This document shows positions 43,850-54,631 of a stretch of DNA of 64,000 nt, piece after piece (within the stretch, counting starts at the first letter, position 1; each line of letters starts with the position of its first letter). The translations under genes were made by a program, and so were the position numbers. Source of the DNA: an uncultured Poribacteria bacterium (GTDB lineage: Bacteria > Poribacteria > WGA-4E > WGA-3G); assembly GCA_951828515.1 (NCBI GenBank), contig OX639992.1, positions 4,938,217 to 5,002,216 of the forward strand. Reading direction: 5' to 3'. The notes beneath the pieces are model-generated. The model searched no databases and had not been told where the DNA came from. It was given only the letters and a program-made list of their open reading frames with translations.

Positions 43850-43934
43850 TCGTATCTGATTAAGACACGTCAGAATTAACCGAAAACCTACCTGAAACAA
43901 TATGGTAGGCAACGAAGGAACCAATAGATAAAAA

Positions 43935-44120
43935 ATGACATTTGAAGAAAAACTCAAAAAATTGACACAAATTGTTGAACAACTCGAGGAAGGTAACGAA
44001 CTACCGCTTGAGGATTCTCTCAAGCTTTTTGAAGAAGGCATCGGTTTAATTTCATCGTGCAGGAAGATGCTCGAAAACGCCGAACAGCGGGTAGAAAACG
44101 TTCTCGAAACAGATTTTTAG
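43935..44120 (+). CDS. xseB: Exodeoxyribonuclease VII small subunit
   Basis: It has 61 residues and is typical of the family: MTFEEKLKKLTQIVEQLEEG followed by ELPLEDSLKLFEEGIGLISS and a final helix CRKMLENAEQRVENVLE. It is small, helical and forms the stalk with XseA. It lies directly downstream of xseA and is probably co-transcribed. Confidence 0.93.
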   Translation: MTFEEKLKKLTQIVEQLEEGNELPLEDSLKLFEEGIGLISSCRKMLENAEQRVENVLETDF

Positions 44121-44197: not shown

Positions 44198-44334
44198 ACC
44201 GCGTAGCCCGTAAGCGTAGCGGAGGGGTTTTTGATAGGGGTTTTTGATAGGGCGTTTCCCTTTCTTCAGATATACGGAGCGGCACTTTATTTGTGAAACC
44301 GCCCTAACCGAACCGCAAGGTAAATTATAAAAAT
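44198..44334. repeat. Short repeat family C copy upstream of dxs
   Basis: It begins CCGCGTAGCCCGTAAGCGTA (GCGGAGGGGTTTTTGATAGG) and ends CGAACCGCAAGGTAAATTAT. It contains TTCAGATATACGGAGCGGCA, also found in the copy before tlyA. It abuts the dxs start codon, so its last bases form the leader of dxs. Confidence 0.75.
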
Positions 44335-46182
44335 ATGTTCTTAGAAAAAATTAAGAGTCCAGCAGACTTGAAAAAGCTTGAGATTGACGAACTGAAAGCA
44401 CTCGCTGATGAGATGCGCGCGTATCTATTAGCAGTGCTCTCTGAGCATCCAGGACATTTTGCGCCGAACTTCGGGACCGTCGAACTCGCAATAGCATTGC
44501 ATAAAGTGTATGATACACCGCGCGACAAGATCATCTGGGACATCGGTCATCAGGCGTATCCGCATAAACTGCTTACCGGTAGACGGGAATCGTTCCCAAC
44601 GCTCCGACAAAGTGGTGGTATCAGTGGGTTCCTCAGCAGAGCCGAGAGTGAATATGATGTCTTTGGCGCGGGACACTCCAGCACTTCTATCGCCGCGGCA
44701 TTAGGGGTCGCAACTGCCAGAGACCTCATCAATGAACATTACAAAGTCGTTGCTATCATCGGAGATGGCGGGTTAACAGGTGGAATGGCATTTGAAGCGT
44801 TGAACGCCGCCGGTGACTTTAGAAACGATATGACCGTCATTCTCAATGACAACAACATGTCCATTTCAGCGACTGTCGGCGCGTTCTCAAAACATTTCCA
44901 CAAACTCACGAGTTCACCGCAGTACAACTTCCTCCGTTCTGGTGCGAAGGGATTGATGAACATGATTTCAGAAGATGCCAAGCAGATAGCAAGGAAGATC
45001 GAGGCTTCTTTGAAACCGGGCACGCTGTTTGAGGAATTCGGATTCCGCTACTTCGGTCCGCTTGATGGAAACGATTTAGAAGCATTGATACCTGTTCTGA
45101 CGGGTATTCGCAGTCTCACCGGTCCTATTTTAGTGCATATCGTAACCGAAAAGGGGCGCGGTTATACACCAGCTGTCGAAGATCCAGTCGGATTCTATAG
45201 TGTGAGTGGTCCCTTCAATCTGAAAACAGGAAAGACAACCAAACCGAAACCTGAAACACCCACCTATACCGAAGTATTCAGCCGCACGTTGATTGAATTG
45301 GCGAAACGCGATGCACGGATCGTCGGTGTGACGGCAGCGATGCCGGGTGGTACAGGACTCGATAAATTTGCCAGCGCATTTCCGAGTCGATGTTTCGACA
45401 TCGGCTTAGCAGAACAGTGCGCCGTTACATTCGCGGGTGGGCTCGCTACCCAAGGCATGCGTCCTGTTGCAGCTATCTATTCCACCTTCCTCCAGCGAAG
45501 TTACGATCAGGTGTTACACGACGTGTGTATCCAAAATCTTCCCGTTATTTTCGCTTTAGACAGAGGGGGGCTTGTCGGCGCGGATGGTCCAACGCATCAC
45601 GGCGTTTTCGATTTTGCATTTCTACGCGCTATTCCAAACATGGTCGTCATGGCACCCAAAGATGAAAACGAAATGCAATCTATGGTGAAAACAGCGGTGG
45701 CGTATCAAGAGGGTCCCATTGCCTTCCGTTACCCGCGCGGCACCGGTATCGGTGTGAAAATGGCAGCGGAACCGCAGGTGATACCGATAGGAAAAAGTGA
45801 AATCGTTAGAGAGGGTGAGGATATACTCGTGATTGCTATCGGCAACCGCGTCTATCCTGCACTGGAAGCGGCGCAGACGTTAGCCGACTCTGGAATCTCA
45901 ACAGCGGTTATTAACGCACGGTTTGTTAAGCCGCTGGACACTGAAACGATTCTACCGCTTGCGGAACGGATCGGTAAGGTCATTACAATTGAGGATGGTG
46001 TGATAATGGGCGGTTTCGGTAGTGCTGTTTTGGAGGCACTTGCCGCAGCTGGTATGAAAGACGTGCAGATCACAAATCTTGGTATTCCAGATGAATTCAT
46101 TGAACACGGCGATATCACACAACTCTACGCTCTCTGCCAGTGTGATGCCGATGCGATTGTCCGAACCGCACAGAATTTTTAG
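44335..46182 (+). CDS. dxs: 1-deoxy-D-xylulose-5-phosphate synthase
   Basis: It condenses pyruvate and glyceraldehyde 3-phosphate with thiamine diphosphate at the head of the MEP pathway. It has 615 residues. Visible: DIGHQAYPHKLLTGR, GDGGLTGGMAFEALNAAG with NDNNMSIS (ThDP/Mg motif), FEEFGFRYFGPLDGNDLEAL, HIVTEKGRGYTPAVEDPVGF, and the transketolase C-terminal domain (LDRGGLVGADGPTHHGVFDF). The motif usually AEQHAV reads AEQCAV, with the catalytic Glu kept and His changed to Cys. Its partner dxr is at 5,648. A repeat of family C directly precedes the ATG. Confidence 0.97.
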   Translation: MFLEKIKSPADLKKLEIDELKALADEMRAYLLAVLSEHPGHFAPNFGTVELAIALHKVYDTPRDKIIWDIGHQAYPHKLLTGRRESFPTLRQSGGISGFLSRAESEYDVFGAGHSSTSIAAALGVATARDLINEHYKVVAIIGDGGLTGGMAFEALNAAGDFRNDMTVILNDNNMSISATVGAFSKHFHKLTSSPQYNFLRSGAKGLMNMISEDAKQIARKIEASLKPGTLFEEFGFRYFGPLDGNDLEALIPVLTGIRSLTGPILVHIVTEKGRGYTPAVEDPVGFYSVSGPFNLKTGKTTKPKPETPTYTEVFSRTLIELAKRDARIVGVTAAMPGGTGLDKFASAFPSRCFDIGLAEQCAVTFAGGLATQGMRPVAAIYSTFLQRSYDQVLHDVCIQNLPVIFALDRGGLVGADGPTHHGVFDFAFLRAIPNMVVMAPKDENEMQSMVKTAVAYQEGPIAFRYPRGTGIGVKMAAEPQVIPIGKSEIVREGEDILVIAIGNRVYPALEAAQTLADSGISTAVINARFVKPLDTETILPLAERIGKVITIEDGVIMGGFGSAVLEALAAAGMKDVQITNLGIPDEFIEHGDITQLYALCQCDADAIVRTAQNF

Positions 46183-46272
46183 TGATTCGCAAAGCGTTAG
46201 ATGAGGCGATAAGTTCTCTAAAGATTTGCGTTTTTGACGCGCCTGCACCGTTGTTGCAGGCTGCTGTCTTCT
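46181..46272 (-). repeat. Short repeat family B copy, antisense to dxs direction
   Basis: Read on the minus strand: CAGCCTGCAACAACGGTGCA then GGC…AAATCTTTAGAGAACTTATC…CTAACGCTTTGCGAATCACT. It is about 70% identical by eye to the tamB segment at 50,531-50,620 (CAGCCTGCAACAACGGCGCA … TTAACGCTTAGCGAATCACT). Read in the tamB frame, this minus-strand copy also lacks stops (QQPATTVQARQKRKSLENLS). Confidence 0.8.
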
Positions 46273-46399: not shown

Positions 46400-46407
46400 T
46401 GTAGGAT

Positions 46408-46529
46408 CGAACCGTAAGCCCGTAACGTACGTAGTGGAGGGGTTTTTGCTTGGGCGTTTCTTCAGATATACGGATAGGCAGGTCAGTCCCCCAAAAACGC
46501 CTGACCGAACCGCGAGGAAAAATTAAAAA
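46408..46529. repeat. Short repeat family C copy forming the start of tlyA
   Basis: GAACCGTAAGCCCGTAACGT, then GTAGTGGAGGGGTTTTTGCT, TTCAGATATACGGATAGGCA and GACCGAACCGCGAGGAAAAA + TTAAAA. It is collinear with the copy before dxs. If tlyA starts at its TTG (46,450), the first 25 residues are encoded by this repeat. Confidence 0.75.
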
Positions 46530-47487
46530 ACGGATAGATACCTTTCTGGTAGAACACGGCTTGGTAGAGAGTCGGGAACAGGCGAAACGGCTCATACTTG
46601 CGGGTGCAGTGACCGTCAACGGGAACTCCAGAATAAAGCCGGGGCAGCGCATTTCGTCAGATGCCAAAGTGGTCGTGCAACAGCCGCAAAAATATGTCAG
46701 CCGAGGCGGGTTTAAGTTAGAAAAGGCGTTACGCACCTTTGATATAAACGTCCGAAATCGGGTCGCACTTGATATTGGCGCATCAACAGGTGGGTTCACA
46801 GACTGCCTTCTTCAGCACGGCGCGAAATTCGTCTATGCCATTGATGTCGGTTACGGGCAACTGGCGTGGAAACTCCGCACGCATCCACAGGTGCAACCGA
46901 TTGAGAAAACGAACATCCGACACCTAACGCCAGCACATCTAAAAACAGCGGCATTAAACAGCATAGAAAATGCTGCCTCCATCGCCGTAATCGATGTTTC
47001 CTTCATCTCTTTGAGAACGGTTCTGCCGAGCATCGTCAAACTTCTTACACAGCAAAATAGCGGTCAGCCATCGGTTTCCGTCAGCAATCAGCAAGAGACG
47101 GTAGGTTCACCAGAAAACCTCTTAACCGACAGCCGATGGCTGATAGCCAATCGCTATTACGACCTCATCGCACTGCTGAAACCACAATTTGAAGCCGGTA
47201 AAGCCCATGTGAAAAAAGGTGGAATCGTCTCCGACAAACAGGTACATATCCAGACGATAGATAACCTCAGTGCTTTTGTCACGAAAAAACTCGGAGCCAC
47301 AGTGAGAGGTCTGACCTATTCGCCGATCCACAAGGACATCGGGAATATTGAGTACTTGCTCTGGCTTACAGTCGATGGTGAGCGCATGAATTCCTATCAA
47401 CTCCAGCAAACGACTGCTGAGGTTGTAGAAGCCGCACACGAATCTTTTGGAAGTAACTCTCAGCAACCAGCAGTCAGCGGGTGGTAA
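46450..47487 (+). CDS. tlyA: TlyA-family rRNA methyltransferase with two repeat-encoded segments
   Basis: It is a 2'-O-methyltransferase (TlyA/haemolysin A family) with an N-terminal S4 RNA-binding domain (RIDTFLVEHGLVESREQAKR, LILAGAVTVNG) and a FtsJ-like domain (YVSRGGFKLEKAL, LDIGASTGGFTDCLLQHGA, VDVGYGQLAW-type SAM pocket, IDVSFISLRTVLP, LLKPQFEAG). Residues 201-237 (QQNSGQPSVSVSNQQETVGS followed by PENLLTDSRWLIANRYY) are a family A palindrome inserted in frame between LLT and DLIALLKPQFEAG. The TTG start at 46,450 puts 25 repeat-derived residues first; an ATT at 46,522 with GAGGA upstream would give MKKRIDTFLVEHG, the family-like start. The C-terminus also ends in a repeat. Confidence 0.9.
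   Translation: MGVSSDIRIGRSVPQKRLTEPRGKIKKRIDTFLVEHGLVESREQAKRLILAGAVTVNGNSRIKPGQRISSDAKVVVQQPQKYVSRGGFKLEKALRTFDINVRNRVALDIGASTGGFTDCLLQHGAKFVYAIDVGYGQLAWKLRTHPQVQPIEKTNIRHLTPAHLKTAALNSIENAASIAVIDVSFISLRTVLPSIVKLLTQQNSGQPSVSVSNQQETVGSPENLLTDSRWLIANRYYDLIALLKPQFEAGKAHVKKGGIVSDKQVHIQTIDNLSAFVTKKLGATVRGLTYSPIHKDIGNIEYLLWLTVDGERMNSYQLQQTTAEVVEAAHESFGSNSQQPAVSGW
47050..47160. repeat. Family A palindromic repeat inserted in frame in tlyA
   Basis: It is 111 bases, a multiple of three, without stop codons in the tlyA frame. Left arm AGCGGTCAGCCATCGG, right arm CCGATGGCTGATAGCC: near-perfect complements. The core includes CACCAGAAAACCTCTTAACC, giving the peptide PENLLTD. Flanking protein segments join to a normal TlyA if it is removed. 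Confidence 0.9.
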
Positions 47488-47556
47488 AAGACGTTTTGTT
47501 AGACCGAAAGCAGTAGCCTGCAACATCGGCGCAGGCGGATTTGAGAAAGGGACTTT
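47459..47556. repeat. Repeat copies at the tlyA end/tamB start (families A and B fragments)
   Basis: TCAGCAACCAGCAGTCAGCG provides the last residues and stop of tlyA. AGTAGCCTGCAACATCGGCG + CAGGCGGATTTGAGAAAG is the left half of family B. CTCCGCAAGGTAAAATTAAA, just inside tamB at 47,578, is the end of family C. Three families meet within about 150 bases. Confidence 0.65.
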
Positions 47557-47560
47557 AAAG

Positions 47561-50500
47561 ATGAAAGCTGCGTTATTCCTCCGCAAGGTAAAATTAAAAA
47601 TTTTCATTGGGATATTTCTCATTATCGGGGTGTGTGGAACGCTCTTCTTTATCCAATCAAGAACTTTTCTGGAGTGGGTGGAGGGGCGGCTTGAGACTGA
47701 GCTCAAAAATCGGATAACGGGTGACTACACGGCAAACATCGGCAAAATAGAGGGAAATATCTTAGGAAACGTCAGCATTAAAAGCGTTGAGATTTCCAAG
47801 GAAAACAAACCGGTAATTTCCACAGGAAAAGTCGTACTCAAATACAATCTGTTAGGATTGCTAACCCGGAAATTTGAGGCGACAAAACTGCAGGTGGATA
47901 AAGCGGAAATTCACGCGCGCCGAAACTCCGATGGCGACCTTAATCTCGGACACATTTTTAAGGAGCAGACGACACAAGGTTCCTCACAATTCGGTTTCGC
48001 TGTCGAATCTATTGAATGTAAAGATGGCACAATCGATTACGTTGACCCACAACGCAACTTTGAAGCCCAGATTGATGGGATCTATATTGAAGTGAAAGGA
48101 CCTCTCGACACATGGAAGCATAATGGAACGTTTAAAATTAATAGTGGCAGTTTCAGGATCAACGGTGCCGAAACTGCGATCAACAAGTTTGATGCCGATT
48201 TTCAGATCTTAGCCAGCGGTAGCACATTAGAGAAACTCCGACTGGAATTTGGCGATTCCGATTTGGAGATTACAGGTGGATTTACCCGCAGAGAAACCAC
48301 CACTTCTTGGAACAGCACGCTTGACTTGAGCCTGAATCTCGCAGATGTAGAGCCTTTTTTCGGTGAAGACATCGAACTTGACGGTGATGTTGACGCGACG
48401 TTGACAGTGAACGGTACAAATTCTGCCTTAGCTGGAACACTCTCCGCAAAAATACCGACGTTGGAAATAGCAGTCAGCGATCAGCAGCCAGCAGTCAGTC
48501 ACAAGAGGGTTTTGTTAAACGAAAACCGCTTGACTGAAAACGGACGGTTTCCGATCGAAACCGATAGCCAACTCAAAATTGCGTTGACAGCACTACATGT
48601 TGACGCGAATTTCAACTCTGATCCCTCCCCAACATTCACATTAAAGAAACTCAGTTTCCAAGTCGCCGATGGCACCGTGGTCAGTGATGGAAGCATCGCG
48701 TCAGAAAGCGCGTTGGAAGGCGATCTACTCACGCAACTTCAACAATTCCCAACCCATCCGATTGCTTACCGTGGAAAATGGGACGCTACAGAAATACAAC
48801 TCATACCGCTGCTGTCGATGTTCACCCAATTGCCAGAAAACCTTGTAGATAGCACAGGACGTCTCTCAAGCAGTGGAAGGTTCAACGGACGTAGCAGCGA
48901 TATTACTTCGCTCCTACAAAGTCTCGAACTCGATAGCAAGGTCGTGTTGACAGAGACAATGCTTGACGAAGTTAGATTCAACGATTCAACTTTCAATTGC
49001 ACAATAGCGGCGGGTGAACTAAAAATAGACGGGAACTTGGATGAAACCGAGATTAACGCCAAAGGTCCCTTTCCGTTGAAGCAACAAGATGCTTTGGAGA
49101 TTCGCGCGTCGGGTATCAATATCAGTGACTTGATGAAAATTGCCAATAGTGAGGACATCGGAGGCATCGGAAATTTGTCCGCGAAGTTGTCAGATGGGGT
49201 ATTGAATGGGTTCATGGAAATCCCGAATGCGACCTTCAACGACATCCCACTCGGTGTGTTGGCGGGTAATTTTCGCTATCAAGCGGGGCGGGTGTTCATC
49301 GAAAACGGTCTGATGACGAAAAACACCATAGAAAAGTCGCCAGTTAAAGAGGAACTCGAAAACTCCACAAGTCTGCTGACAACTGACGACCGACGACTGA
49401 TAACTACTAAAACGGAGTATGAAAGTCGGGCAACAATTACGGGGACTGTGGAGGTTAATGGCGACTTCCCAGCGGATTTCAGTGTTATTGCCGACCCCGT
49501 TTACGTCCAACATTACCCAAGACTCTTGTTGGGTGCGGAATATCCGGTGGACGGTGAGATCAGAGGCGAACTCAAATTAAATGGAACACTCGTTAATCTC
49601 GATGGTAGTGCCGACTTCTATGTTACCGAAGGCGTGGCATGGGGTATCCATTTGGATCCGTTGACGCTGCCTCTGGAAATTGAGGATTACAACCTTACGA
49701 TACCGGACTACAAAATAACGACACGTGGGCAACAGGTTACACTCAATGTTGCGGTAGCATCCAATGGCGAATATGACATCCTCCTCGAAAACGACACCCC
49801 CGTCCATTTAGAAGAAATTGCGAAGGCGGCAGACCTCAGCGATTTCCCGTTTGAAGGACTATTCGATGTTCGGGTTGTTGGAACGCTCAAAAAACCCGAA
49901 AGTGCTGCCCCTGAGGTCAGCTGGCGGGTGGAACTCGATTTTTCGGACGTAACCTTCTTGCACAATGAACGCGGCAGGAAATATCCACTCGGTGATGTTT
50001 ATCTGCTCGGCAAACTCGTAGAACGAAAAAATACCACCGGTGAGCCTGACATCTTCGACTTTCAGGGGCATGGATTTGACGGAACAAGTCAGATTCAGGG
50101 TTACGTCAGCATGGCTACGGGGAATCCCTACCAATTCACAGCGGAGAGTGAGGCATTTGATATTGCACGAATCCTGCCTATAGTGCATCCCTTACTTGAG
50201 TCGGTTACAGGGATTGCCGGTGGTGTCGCGTCAATAAGTGGAACGGTAGCAGACCTCGCCCCACCCACCGAGAATATAGCCTCTGAAACCCAATCGTTAA
50301 AAAATCCCTACGATGTAGATATTCTCGTCAGGGAATTAGCAATCAGCCTTCAGCCTTCAGCAGTCAGCAAAGACGCAAGCGTTTCAAGAACGTTTCTTTC
50401 TTTACCGACGGCTGATAGCCAACAGCCGACAGCCACTATCACAAATGCTGAACCGATTCGCTTGCATCTCAAAGATGACAAATGGACAATCGATTCCCTT

Positions 50501-53500
50501 TCCTTAAGGACATCTGAATCAATAAAAGAAGGGCAGCCTGCAACAACGGCGCAGGCAGAGGGTAAGAAAAAATCGTTATTAAACCCATCGCTTGATTTAA
50601 CGCTTAGCGAATCACTAAAAAATCCATTTCTTGAATTGACAGGAACTCTGGATGCCAAAAGTGAGGCGATGAATCTGCACGCGGTATCTGACGGGTTCGC
50701 GCTGGCAGCGTTTGAAGACGTATTGGGGCTCCCGCTTGGTATGCTGCAAGCCGGTGCCCTTCGTTATGACTTGAAAGCCACAGGAACACCCATGCAACCC
50801 AATGTTCAGTTAGAATGGGCAATCCCGACGCTAACATTAGAAACAGAAGCGGGTGATATTGATATCGTCGATGCCGGTGGTGCAATAACATATCAGGAGG
50901 AGACGCTGCGTTTTGAGGATTGTGCTTTCAAACTCTTCGGTAACAACGTGAACGTGGAAGGGTACATTGACGTTCAACCCGAAGAGGTCAACAACTCGGA
51001 ATTACACCTCCGCGTCGATACAATTGCTTTGGATCTCGCGAGTGTGGTTTCCGGTTCGGATTTTTTTTCAAAAAATCCTTTCGGTCATCAGTCCTCAGAC
51101 AAGAGTGGGTTGTTAAACGAAAACCTCTTAACCGACAACCTTAACCATCGACTCGACTCCGATACAACACAGCAAAGCACGAGTCGATGGTTAAAACCGA
51201 CAACTGATGATCAATATATAACCGGGACTTTAGAGGCATCCATAGAGATCGGTGGCACACTCGCTGAGCCTCTTGTTCTACTATACGCTGAAACAGCCGG
51301 GCAACGTCCGATCCGCTTTGCCTCTTATATCCCCTCTATCACGCTGGAGAGACTTCGCGTAGATATTCACTTCGATTCAGAATTTATACGTGTTCAAAGG
51401 GCGGAGGCAAACGGACAGATGGGAGATGGTCCTTATCGTGTCGAAGGAGAAGCCGCGTTCTCACGCCGAAATAGCATTGTCCCGCAAGCCCACACGCGGC
51501 TTGCGTCGCAGTCAGCAGTCAGCAGTCAGTTACAAGACGGGTACGACGAGGAACCTAACACCTCTTTACTGAAAACTGACAGGATTTTTTCGCAGAAAAA
51601 ATCCGCTCTGACAACTGACAACTATTTTAAAATTGATGTGTCGGCATCGCAAGTAGAAATTGGGGACTACGGTTTCGCTTCAGGACATGTTAAGCTTAGC
51701 GGTACAGGCTTAGATCCACAACAGATTACCGTCATTGGTGAAATAAACGAATTGGAACTTGATGGCTACGATTTCCGTCTCACGAACAGGGCACCACTCC
51801 GATTCAGTCTAAACGCCCCTCAAACCCGTGAGGGAAATTCTCTGCGACCTTCCATTCTAACCAAACCCGTAGCTCGTAACGAAGTGGAGAGCGGATACTC
51901 AGAGAGGCATGTCAAACCCCAAATCAGCCCTGTTTCTCCGCAAGGTAAAATTAAAAATCCGCAAGGTGAAATTAAAATACAGATTCCCTTACAACTCACA
52001 TCACCCACGATGACAGCCGCGACGGAGGTCAACGTTGCAGGTACTTTCACCGCCCCTGAAATCACAGCAGACTGGCACGGCACGCTCAATGACAAAGAGT
52101 GGACAGGCAAAATCGAGTACAAAGATGAACGCATAAATATCATCGGGATAGAACTCAAAAACCGGGATGGGACGTTAACGCTTGCAGGTGTGATTCCGTT
52201 TAATCTGACATTTGAAGGGTTGGATATATCTGAGCGATTTCTTGCAGCACCCATCGATATCCGTCTTCGAGGTAGCGAGCTGCCCCTCAACTTTTTCCCG
52301 GGGATTGAGACGGTCTTTGCTGAAGCGGATGGCACTGTTGACATAGATTTGGGGATACAAGGCACAAGTCAATCGTCAGACATGATCGGCAACGTGTTTG
52401 TTGAGGCGTTGCATCTGCGTCTCAAGGACTTTCATGAACCACTCCGAAATACGCAGATACAGTTCAGCGTACGTGAAGAACTAATTAATATCGCAGAGTT
52501 CCGATTTGACATAGCGGAAGGTTCCTGTAGACTTGAACACGGACTGATAGCATTAGACGGCTTAACGCCAGAATACTTGATATTACGAGGATTGAGATTA
52601 GAGCGATTTCCGCTCGGTTCAACTGTACGTCAATCTTTACCGCCGGATTTGTTAGAAGAGACCGAGGGACATATAACAACGACATTGGAGACATTAACAG
52701 TGCCGTTTGACAGTTTCTTAGCAACTGGAGACAGGATGCCATTTCCGCAAGTCCGAAAGATCCCCTCGCTCACCGACCTCGTGGCTGTATCGAATGCGAA
52801 TTTATCCATTGATAGTGTCCGCTTCGCTTTCAAGGCAATGGATCGGTATTATGACTTTCAAAGTTCTCAATCAACGCCGATAGTGCTCAGTGATGGAACT
52901 CTGGCTTTAACGAAAACCTTCATGCTTGAAAATCAAGACGAATTTTCAGTCAAGCAGACCTTTACCGATGAAGATACAAAACCTGAAGGTTTACTTGCCG
53001 ATGAACAAACACTTGATGCCAAGACAACGCTCAGTATTGATGCTGAAAGCGAATGGTCGGTGAACGGGGAATTTGACGGCGCACTTCGGATCAAAAATTT
53101 TGATGTTTCAGCGATAACGGAGACATGGCCCGCACCGTATCGGGTTACCGGTGCGCTGTCGGGAAGTCTACAGATCAGCGGCACGAGTGCGGATCCAAAG
53201 ATAACCGTGCGGCGGCATGAAAGCGAACCCGCTGAGCTCTATCTACACGACATTCCCATTGACCTGCGCTGGAGAATCCGGTATCAGAATGGGAAATGGG
53301 AAATAACGGAAAAAAGGTACGTCGAAATTCGATTTGGGGAAAATCAACTGACGTTCTCATGGATGATGCCTTACGAACTTGAAATTATTCCGTTTCTTAC
53401 GGCACTCCAGCAGACCCCGGAAAAGGTGTGGACGGCACTCCAACAGACCCCGATGCATGGCACTGTGGATATTAAAGTAGAGGATCTCGACATGCTACCG

Positions 53501-54631
53501 TCTGTTGTGCCGGGACTCAGTGCCGCAACAGGCACGAGTGAGCTTCATGTCAAGCTGACAGGGACGATGGAGACTCCAGAAGCCAATGGTCGGGTGCTTT
53601 TCCAAAATATTGGGTTTGAATTCCCAGAGGCTGGTATTCGCGTTGAAGAGATGGAGGGCAAAATTGAGTTATCAGAAACAGGGGCGACTATTCAGCAACT
53701 TGATGGTATCTTGAACGATGGAAAATTTGGGGTTACAGGTGGCATCACAGCCCCACCGGATAAACGAATATGGGAGAAACCGCCGACGTTGAACCTGTCC
53801 ACCGGTCTCACATCAGCGGCTTTTGAACAACAAGGACAGTATCGGATCGAGATCTCTTCCACCTCATTTGGGCTGAAGGGGGAACTTCTTCGTCCCTATC
53901 TAACAGGGAGCCTACATATCAGCGGAGGCTACTATCAACAAAATTGGGAAAGCGTGCGGGATTGGCTCACAGGGGTCTCCGTCAAGGAAACGGAACTTGT
54001 GCTGGATTACCCGATTCTACGTGATTTACATCTCAATGGCGTAGATATTAACATCCCGAACAATTTTCGTGTGCTTTCATCTATCACGGGACCCACAGAC
54101 ATTGAAATCTCCTGCTTAGGTAAACTCTTCGGTCCAATTAATGAGCCGGTTTTCAATGGGAATGTCTCGGTACTCAACGGAAAAATTGGATTCGTTGCAC
54201 AGACCTTTGAATTCCTCGAAGGTTCTCGAATCAGTAACCAGAGTACCGTCGATTTTGATCCGGAACTCAATATTTTTCTCCGCACCCCCAACAGCGTTCG
54301 AGGCGTGTTACCGAGAGATGGAAGCACAGTGGACCTTCAGGTTTACGCCTCCTTTACTGGCACGCTAAGCAACCCGAACTTCATCCTGAACGCGCCCCCT
54401 GAGACGACCACGGAAGTCCTTTCACATGACGATATTATAGATTTTATCTTATACAATGCCGCGCTCTCAGGCGCACTCGGTGGGTTCACTTTTAGTTTCC
54501 ATCGTCCGCTTGATGAAGACGCACGATATATCAGTGCGGAGTACCCACTTGGAAAGAATGTATCCATTAAAATTGAAACGAATGAAAAAAGGGAGCACGG
54601 GATTGACATTGAATTCAAGGGACGTTTCTAA
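47561..54631 (+). CDS. tamB: TamB-like protein (DUF490/TamB C-terminal domain), repeat-expanded
   Basis: It has 2,356 residues from the ATG at 47,561 (AAAGGG upstream; the frame is open to 47,447, but that part is repeat). An N-terminal signal anchor (LKIFIGIFLIIGVCGTLFFI) is followed by a very long periplasmic body of short beta-strands with recurrent GNVSIKSVEI-, GTLSAKIPTLEI- and FNGRSSDI-type segments (AsmA/TamB beta-taco), and a C-terminal TamB domain (VSVLNGKIGFVAQTFEFLEG, DPELNIFLRTP, TLSNPNFILNAPPE, FSFHRPLDEDARYISAEYPL, SIKIETNEKREHGIDIEFKG). TamB-type proteins bridge the inner and outer membranes and move lipids to the outer membrane or assist its assembly. At least seven short repeats are inserted in frame. 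bamA follows immediately. Confidence 0.93.
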   Translation: MKAALFLRKVKLKIFIGIFLIIGVCGTLFFIQSRTFLEWVEGRLETELKNRITGDYTANIGKIEGNILGNVSIKSVEISKENKPVISTGKVVLKYNLLGLLTRKFEATKLQVDKAEIHARRNSDGDLNLGHIFKEQTTQGSSQFGFAVESIECKDGTIDYVDPQRNFEAQIDGIYIEVKGPLDTWKHNGTFKINSGSFRINGAETAINKFDADFQILASGSTLEKLRLEFGDSDLEITGGFTRRETTTSWNSTLDLSLNLADVEPFFGEDIELDGDVDATLTVNGTNSALAGTLSAKIPTLEIAVSDQQPAVSHKRVLLNENRLTENGRFPIETDSQLKIALTALHVDANFNSDPSPTFTLKKLSFQVADGTVVSDGSIASESALEGDLLTQLQQFPTHPIAYRGKWDATEIQLIPLLSMFTQLPENLVDSTGRLSSSGRFNGRSSDITSLLQSLELDSKVVLTETMLDEVRFNDSTFNCTIAAGELKIDGNLDETEINAKGPFPLKQQDALEIRASGINISDLMKIANSEDIGGIGNLSAKLSDGVLNGFMEIPNATFNDIPLGVLAGNFRYQAGRVFIENGLMTKNTIEKSPVKEELENSTSLLTTDDRRLITTKTEYESRATITGTVEVNGDFPADFSVIADPVYVQHYPRLLLGAEYPVDGEIRGELKLNGTLVNLDGSADFYVTEGVAWGIHLDPLTLPLEIEDYNLTIPDYKITTRGQQVTLNVAVASNGEYDILLENDTPVHLEEIAKAADLSDFPFEGLFDVRVVGTLKKPESAAPEVSWRVELDFSDVTFLHNERGRKYPLGDVYLLGKLVERKNTTGEPDIFDFQGHGFDGTSQIQGYVSMATGNPYQFTAESEAFDIARILPIVHPLLESVTGIAGGVASISGTVADLAPPTENIASETQSLKNPYDVDILVRELAISLQPSAVSKDASVSRTFLSLPTADSQQPTATITNAEPIRLHLKDDKWTIDSLSLRTSESIKEGQPATTAQAEGKKKSLLNPSLDLTLSESLKNPFLELTGTLDAKSEAMNLHAVSDGFALAAFEDVLGLPLGMLQAGALRYDLKATGTPMQPNVQLEWAIPTLTLETEAGDIDIVDAGGAITYQEETLRFEDCAFKLFGNNVNVEGYIDVQPEEVNNSELHLRVDTIALDLASVVSGSDFFSKNPFGHQSSDKSGLLNENLLTDNLNHRLDSDTTQQSTSRWLKPTTDDQYITGTLEASIEIGGTLAEPLVLLYAETAGQRPIRFASYIPSITLERLRVDIHFDSEFIRVQRAEANGQMGDGPYRVEGEAAFSRRNSIVPQAHTRLASQSAVSSQLQDGYDEEPNTSLLKTDRIFSQKKSALTTDNYFKIDVSASQVEIGDYGFASGHVKLSGTGLDPQQITVIGEINELELDGYDFRLTNRAPLRFSLNAPQTREGNSLRPSILTKPVARNEVESGYSERHVKPQISPVSPQGKIKNPQGEIKIQIPLQLTSPTMTAATEVNVAGTFTAPEITADWHGTLNDKEWTGKIEYKDERINIIGIELKNRDGTLTLAGVIPFNLTFEGLDISERFLAAPIDIRLRGSELPLNFFPGIETVFAEADGTVDIDLGIQGTSQSSDMIGNVFVEALHLRLKDFHEPLRNTQIQFSVREELINIAEFRFDIAEGSCRLEHGLIALDGLTPEYLILRGLRLERFPLGSTVRQSLPPDLLEETEGHITTTLETLTVPFDSFLATGDRMPFPQVRKIPSLTDLVAVSNANLSIDSVRFAFKAMDRYYDFQSSQSTPIVLSDGTLALTKTFMLENQDEFSVKQTFTDEDTKPEGLLADEQTLDAKTTLSIDAESEWSVNGEFDGALRIKNFDVSAITETWPAPYRVTGALSGSLQISGTSADPKITVRRHESEPAELYLHDIPIDLRWRIRYQNGKWEITEKRYVEIRFGENQLTFSWMMPYELEIIPFLTALQQTPEKVWTALQQTPMHGTVDIKVEDLDMLPSVVPGLSAATGTSELHVKLTGTMETPEANGRVLFQNIGFEFPEAGIRVEEMEGKIELSETGATIQQLDGILNDGKFGVTGGITAPPDKRIWEKPPTLNLSTGLTSAAFEQQGQYRIEISSTSFGLKGELLRPYLTGSLHISGGYYQQNWESVRDWLTGVSVKETELVLDYPILRDLHLNGVDINIPNNFRVLSSITGPTDIEISCLGKLFGPINEPVFNGNVSVLNGKIGFVAQTFEFLEGSRISNQSTVDFDPELNIFLRTPNSVRGVLPRDGSTVDLQVYASFTGTLSNPNFILNAPPETTTEVLSHDDIIDFILYNAALSGALGGFTFSFHRPLDEDARYISAEYPLGKNVSIKIETNEKREHGIDIEFKGRF
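48467..48545. repeat. Family A repeat in tamB (copy 1)
   Basis: Reads GCAGTCAGCGATCAGCAGCC, AGCAGTCAGTCACAAGAGGG, TTTTGTTAAACGAAAACCGC, TTGACTGAAAACGG. Encodes AVSDQQPAVSHKRVLLNENR + LTEN. It is the nearest copy to the intergenic consensus, inside the coding sequence. Confidence 0.92.
49338..49410. repeat. Family A repeat in tamB (copy 2, diverged)
   Basis: CGCCAGTTAAAGAGGAACTC, GAAAACTCCACAAGTCTGCT, GACAACTGACGACCGACGAC, TGATAACTAC. Encodes SPVKEELENSTSLLTTDDRR + LITT. The right arm keeps ACAACTGACGACCGACGACTGATAAC in full. Confidence 0.7.
50337..50440. repeat. Family A repeat in tamB (copy 3)
   Basis: Left arm AGCAATCAGCCTTCAGCCTT CAGCAGTCAGC; right arm GACGGCTGATAGCCAACAGC CGACAGCC. The core is replaced by GACGCAAGCGTTTCAAGAAC. 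Encodes AISLQPSAVSKDASVSRTFL then SLPTADSQQPTA. Confidence 0.8.
50531..50620 (+). repeat. Family B repeat in tamB
   Basis: GGGCAGCCTGCAACAACGGC, GCAGGCAGAGGGTAAGAAAA … CTTAGCGAATCACT. Encodes GQPATTAQAEGKKKSLLNPS followed by LDLTLSESLKN. The minus-strand copy at 46,181 shows the sequence is a dispersed element, not a native part of TamB. Confidence 0.85.
51083..51215. repeat. Family A repeat in tamB (copy 4) with nested 54-bp palindrome
   Basis: The consensus core AAGAGTGGGTTGTTAAACGA and AAACCTCTTAACCGACAAC encodes GLLNENLLTDN. In the right arm is nested TTAACCATCGACTCG (51,141-51,155) with its exact complement at 51,180-51,194. After that the right arm resumes (ACCGACAACTGATGATC). It looks like an insertion inside an insertion. 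Confidence 0.88.
51482..51506. repeat. Short palindrome GCAAGCC…GGCTTGC in tamB
   Basis: CCGCAAGCC-cacac-GCGGCTTGCG lies immediately before family A copy 5, in frame (PQAHTRLA). Confidence 0.5.
51507..51635. repeat. Family A repeat in tamB (copy 5) with nested mini-hairpin
   Basis: CGCAGTCAGCAGTCAGCAGT on the left; core TTACAAGACGGGTACGACGA and CCTAACACCTCTTTACTG; right arm ACTGACA then CTCTGACAACTGACAACTAT. Nested in the right arm: GGATTTTTTC-gca-GAAAAAATCC (51,582-51,604). The frame differs from copies 1 and 4 yet stays open (NTSLLKTD). Confidence 0.9.
51861..51976. repeat. Family C repeat in tamB
   Basis: CCAAACCCGTAGCTCGTAAC, GAAGTGGAGAGCGGATACTC … TCCGCAAGGTAAAATTAAAA, then GCAAGGTGAAATTAAAAT as a duplicated end. 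Encodes TKPVARNEVESGYSERHVKP and SPQGKIKNPQGEIKI. The same family lies upstream of dxs and tlyA. Confidence 0.85.

Follow-up and report, generated by a model that had tools for sequence, protein, structure and literature searches.

The results show that a short repeat, here called family B, is dispersed through the genome of an uncultured poribacterium, is built around a covarying hairpin and stands in many of its copies directly before a start codon. It is almost confined to one genus of sponge-living Poribacteria. We consider it probable that family B is a group of genus-specific, spreading REP/MITE-like repeats serving mostly as mobile 5′ leaders, their function and movement being deduced from sequence comparison. 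Coordinates (Table 1) refer to the window, i.e., the whole 64,000-nucleotide stretch analysed; G000 is the window's own genome, and the other G numbers are the relatives compared.

Table 1. Positions in the window of the family B elements and of their host and component features.
Feature	Position	Strand	Basis
Type-1 leader of dxs, ATG at 44335; G000, G012 and G042 only among those compared	44208..44331	+	
Type-2 copy between dxs and tlyA; tail overlaps dxs stop codon; head-to-head partner of 46407-46528	46177..46272	-	
Leader-type element extending into tlyA, with an additional GGTTTTTGCTTGGGCGTTTC segment; not present in relatives	46407..46528	+	
tamB open reading frame, host of two internal copies	47447..54631	+	
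Type-1 element at tamB start; supplies ATG (about 47561), replaces native N-terminus MRKRLQK	47505..47599	+	
In-frame tamB insertion (site 1), 96 bp, type-2 element; model R1 match 50525-50620	50522..50617	+	Codon alignment with 15 orthologues; R1 28.3 bits
Hairpin H1, GCCTGCAACAACGGCGCAGGC	50536..50556	+	Exact-hairpin count and fold
Type-2 tail AACGCTTAGCGAATCACTAAAA, without AAGG on the + strand	50599..50620	+	
Type-1 element in frame within tamB (site 2), short native segment replaced, common to G008	51861..51956	+	tamB codon alignment, model R1
Two tandem 21-bp tails within tamB	51938..51977	+	

An alignment of 29 copies gave a unit of about 95 nt, in which an A-rich edge (CAAAAAC) is followed by GTAG, the hairpin, GGAT, a variable body and the tail CCGCAAGGTAAAATTAAAA. 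GTAG precedes the hairpin in 21 of these copies and GYAG (GTAG or GCAG) in 24; in the fold used, the last G of GTAG overlaps the first hairpin pair. The tail CCGCAAGGTAAAATTAAAA defines type 1 and contains AAGG, a Shine-Dalgarno-like motif lying about 10–12 nt before the start codon. In the type-2 variant, to which the site-1 copy in tamB belongs, the tail is a different one (AACGCCTTGCGAATAATTAAAA) without AAGG, and the model score is only 28 bits. Of 72 hairpins, 2 lacked a tail. When 106 distinct copies were compared, changes on both sides were found in each of the four outer hairpin pairs, and double-changed cells numbered 65 vs. 16.6 in shuffles, with far fewer when the partners were slid. 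In one hairpin class, the inner loop pair was C-G or T-A in 34 of 35 copies. The folding of the consensus RNA suggested in a previous sequence-only reading of this DNA hardly improved on shuffles (z about −1) and was uninformative by itself, so that the claim of a structure rests on the covariation, which was informative. The hairpin is thus a real structure, which may matter as RNA or as single-stranded DNA. Rfam 15 covariance models gave no match to the locus at E up to 2. In some leaders (L263, L265, L228 and window 44208–44331), other palindromes or GGTTTTTGATAGGG segments are nested in the hairpin or adjoin it, and the hairpin itself therefore seems to be a hot spot.

Copies in the own genome were counted in 1.26 Mb, about a fifth of the genome, with open frames as the sole gene calls. 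With an E cutoff of 1, the covariance model gave 107 matches in 1.264 Mb, most of them strong. Family B has about 90 copies in the 1.26 Mb, which extrapolates to roughly 400 per genome. Within the genus, the model found the family in 35 of the 36 genomes; outside it, in 1 of 24. When a hairpin 27-mer was searched in a collection of 84,980 species, the matches listed, from which the own genome was possibly left out, were Poribacteria records only. The open-access literature yielded no description of such an element in Poribacteria.

The position of the copies relative to genes did not support the picture implied by the sequence-only reading, that of a repeat typical of gene interiors: only about 4 of the 93 scored copies lie in frame (sense) within an ORF vs. 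43 that end at most 15 nt upstream of the start codon of an ORF with a length of 70 aa or more. Of the 108 type-1 tails in the 1.26 Mb of the own genome, 53 (49%) were followed within 13 nt by the start of an ORF of 60 aa or more; among random positions this held for 13%, and among other ATTAAA sites for 15%. The same was true for 94 loci from other genomes, where 99 of 170 type-1 tails (58%) were followed by a start within 13 nt vs. 16% in the control (p about 3e-23). The start position shows a sharp peak, with AATTAAAA-A-ATG as the usual arrangement. No recognised start adjoins about half of the copies. None of the 8 type-2 tails in the own genome was followed by a start, and of 26 in the wider set, about 4 convincingly were; since such tails are so rarely at starts, the site-1 copy in tamB is a member of a less leader-like branch.

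The copies might be purely selfish palindromes resembling REPs or the Rickettsia palindromic elements (RPE), inserted nearly at random, with the A-rich positions before ATG being merely tolerant and the tail functionless. Such a reading would accommodate the in-frame intragenic copies, the many copies in intergenic regions away from starts, and the head-to-head and tandem pairs (13 of each), as such dimers are described for REPs (PMC3733652). It is, however, unlikely in view of the tail-to-ATG distance, which is nearly fixed in dozens of genes, the lack of enrichment at the A-rich ATTAAA control sites, and the loss of the native ribosome-binding sites at dxs and purL, where the element must hold the replacement. 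The genes behind the leaders are diverse, ordinary housekeeping genes without a common theme (purQ, purL, secD, secF, nusB, a nuoG-like gene and others). This argues against an immobile, vertically inherited cis-regulatory RNA (a riboswitch-like or regulon leader) lost in some lineages, as do the native starts kept at purL and secF in outlying genomes of the genus, the existence of in-frame and antisense copies, and the absence of an Rfam match. Such an RNA would explain the covarying hairpin and the placement at starts, but we consider it highly improbable.

Comparison of orthologues at dxs, tlyA, tamB, purL and secF showed that some relatives have the leader and others the native start. In relatives without the leader, the native region upstream of dxs is short and has AGGATTCATAAC-ATG or similar. 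At the other end of this gene, the tail of the minus-strand element includes the stop codon (window 46170–46185), and the final dxs residues are unlike those of relatives. The tlyA leader occurs in G000 only, where the conserved ATG is lost. At this start (window 46528–46545), G000 and G012 both lack the ATG conserved in relatives, and the frame of G000 is open into the upstream element. The tamB start carries a full leader in G000, G008 and G016, with a different hairpin in each of the three, the bodies of the G000 and G008 leaders being nearly the same, and only the 3′ half or the tail was found in G012, G023 and G042. The purL leader is present in G000, G008 and G046, with the loss of the native ribosome-binding site, the start and three codons; G049 has the tail alone before the native ATG, a different leader (family D) stands in G023, G017 and G044, and the remaining genomes are native. 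Both at tamB and at purL, the hairpin joined to one and the same leader body varies from genome to genome. When mapped on a purL tree of 29 genomes, the leader distribution requires 4–5 state changes, some of which may be exchanges of the upstream region rather than new insertions, because the bodies are alike in G000, G046 and G008. More generally, presence/absence among species could partly be due to loss or recombination of upstream regions. In G008, G012, G016, G023, G042 and G046, the secF match ends after residue 100, which suggests a further insertion or divergence beyond this residue in those close relatives. Several insertions removed native sequence; no duplicated target and no clean target-site duplication are visible, the relatives being too diverged for short duplications to be readable, also at tamB site 1. 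Judging from position and replacement, the element most likely supplies translation initiation, since the native sites were removed at dxs and purL.

Inside tamB, the codon alignment revealed 32 extra codons at site 1 that keep the reading frame. The site is filled only in G000 and G012 and empty in 14 other aligned relatives, thus indicating that the insertion is real, in frame and confined to a lineage. The two filled copies are 85% identical, with the frame open in both, and across the tamB orthologues of 30 genomes of the genus, the alignment breaks exactly at the site of insertion. The orthologues thereby confirm the in-frame repeat that the sequence-only reading had placed at 50,531–50,620, with the bounds moved to 50,522–50,617. 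The repeat stands well above chance: with 110 bases around the site as the query, BLAST against the own genome gave 47 listed matches, and the window holds three exact copies of the hairpin GCCTGC-N-GCAGGC, where 0.04 would be expected. The minus-strand copy noticed earlier at 46,181–46,272 does exist, but its identity, put at about 70%, is 78% over 92 bp (E 2.8e-14, BLAST); as had been stated, it is free of stops in the same frame, and it encodes a similar peptide. The supposed half copy at 47,517 proved to be a full-length element (47,505–47,599, 91 bits) with the other 3′ tail type. The outcome named beforehand as refuting the repeat, a match found nowhere else and a segment conserved in unrelated TamB proteins, did not occur: the repeat has other copies, and nearly all TamB relatives lack the protein segment. 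The structure prediction for this TamB segment (mean pLDDT 40), in which the insert is modelled as a coil between strands, carries no weight. We also considered a conserved peptide in the intragenic copies and rejected it: relative to the hairpin, the reading frame of one tamB copy differs from that of the other, which argues against such a peptide. Family B is distinct from family A, as had been proposed, its model matching none of the family A insertions in tamB. The latter (TCAGCAGTCAGC .. CCTCTTAACTGACAACTGA, at about 50330–50440, 51100–51220 and 51600–51740) vary among orthologues, and family A insertions often lie directly upstream of family B elements, e.g., at dxs.

Family D, the other leader at purL, is about 60 nt long and consists of ACCAAAAACC, a paired stem around the conserved loop GAAAYGWARTGGA, and then ATAGTTAAAAATG (L264, L306, L236 and others). 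Its stems vary freely yet stay paired: 98% of the cells are paired, with 31 double changes vs. 10.5 in shuffles and a covariation score of 0.70 vs. 0.23. All 38 searched genomes of the genus carry it, as does 1 of 44 others, and its loci had no match in Rfam 15 at E up to 1. A weak family D match lies at window 43879–43937. As a leader, family D behaves like family B. Pairs of B/D elements were arranged head to head in 13 cases, in tandem in 13 and tail to tail in none, with about 3 neighbours expected by chance. It is tempting to suggest, if only tentatively, that families B and D may belong to a Poribacteria superfamily of mobile structured 5′ leaders that passes from gene to gene, takes over translation initiation chromosome-wide in place of native ribosome-binding sites and start codons, and lands or is kept at starts because of its function there rather than being just tolerated.

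Bacterial MITEs such as Correia, RUP and ERIC are non-autonomous, reach high copy numbers and influence neighbouring genes. Family B resembles these elements (PMC10969869) in being non-autonomous and of high copy number and in its presumed influence on adjoining genes, but its monomer has no evident terminal inverted repeats, no target duplication was found (the relatives being too diverged at site 1), and the signal that it carries resembles a ribosome-binding site. RPE are short, dispersed elements that insert in frame into protein genes and leave these unbroken (PMC10969869, PMC3733652), and both tamB sites are likewise in-frame coding insertions absent from orthologues. In contrast to RPE, however, in-frame copies are a small minority of family B, nearly half of which are gene leaders; RPE are CGTC-tagged, whereas the family B hairpin is adjoined by GTAG or GCAG in 24 of 29 copies; the tamB copies use different reading frames and share no conserved peptide; and, concerning homology, the hairpin 27-mer was found in Poribacteria only, among the matches listed. 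The GTAG REPs, known from many phyla, have a hairpin beside GTAG, alternative complementary stems, head-to-head dimers and some intragenic units (PMC3733652). The GTAG-adjacent hairpin, the complementary covarying stem and the head-to-head dimers of family B are similar, while REPs are palindromes of 20–40 bp and family B is a 95-nt unit with a conserved tail at a fixed distance from ATG, without tail-to-tail dimers among the B/D pairs. We place family B within the REP/MITE kind, outside any named family.

As for the mobilising enzyme, the frequent GTAG or GYAG before the hairpin and six Y1 transposase matches in the own genome would fit REP elements moved by a genome-encoded RAYT (REP-associated tyrosine transposase). 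We nevertheless find this doubtful: the flanks of the four Y1 genes inspected of the six carry other repeats and not the family B hairpin, the element-rich G012 shows no Y1 match, and G021, with five Y1 matches, has no element. These four IS200-like/RAYT-like genes (G000:C1 2484804, 2854481, 2864923 and 2880735) have flanking repeats of their own, e.g., GGCGAGGTTTC..GAAACCTCGCC or GGTGCGGTTTGCAACCGCACC. Spread by reverse transcription of the leader RNA, which would produce a constant 3′ end, tandem tails and 5′-shortened copies, could account for the tail-only copies at tamB in G012, G023 and G042 and for the tandem tails, but there is no RVT_1 domain in the own genome, nor in several element-rich relatives (e.g., G012, G023 and G046), and there is very little chance that this is the route.

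Taken together, the data are best accommodated by mobile leaders acting as follows. Copies would arise beside genes and replace the native sequence up to the start codon; the AAGG of the tail would then act as a Shine-Dalgarno-like site 10–12 nt ahead of this codon and drive translation, so that the target gene acquires a ribosome-binding site, and in some cases a start codon, that is new to it. Copies landing elsewhere would persist if harmless, and two may have remained in frame in tamB in this way, one of them with a type-2 tail.

Mobile elements that bring promoters are well known. If our reading is true, a dispersed repeat has brought a ribosome-binding site and even the start codon to hundreds of genes, which would represent a genome-wide route to rewired translation and a natural experiment on what makes a leader work. 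Starts called automatically in these genomes may be in error, because native starts have given way to the elements. In-frame additions to proteins such as TamB would then be a by-product of the same process in the same genomes.
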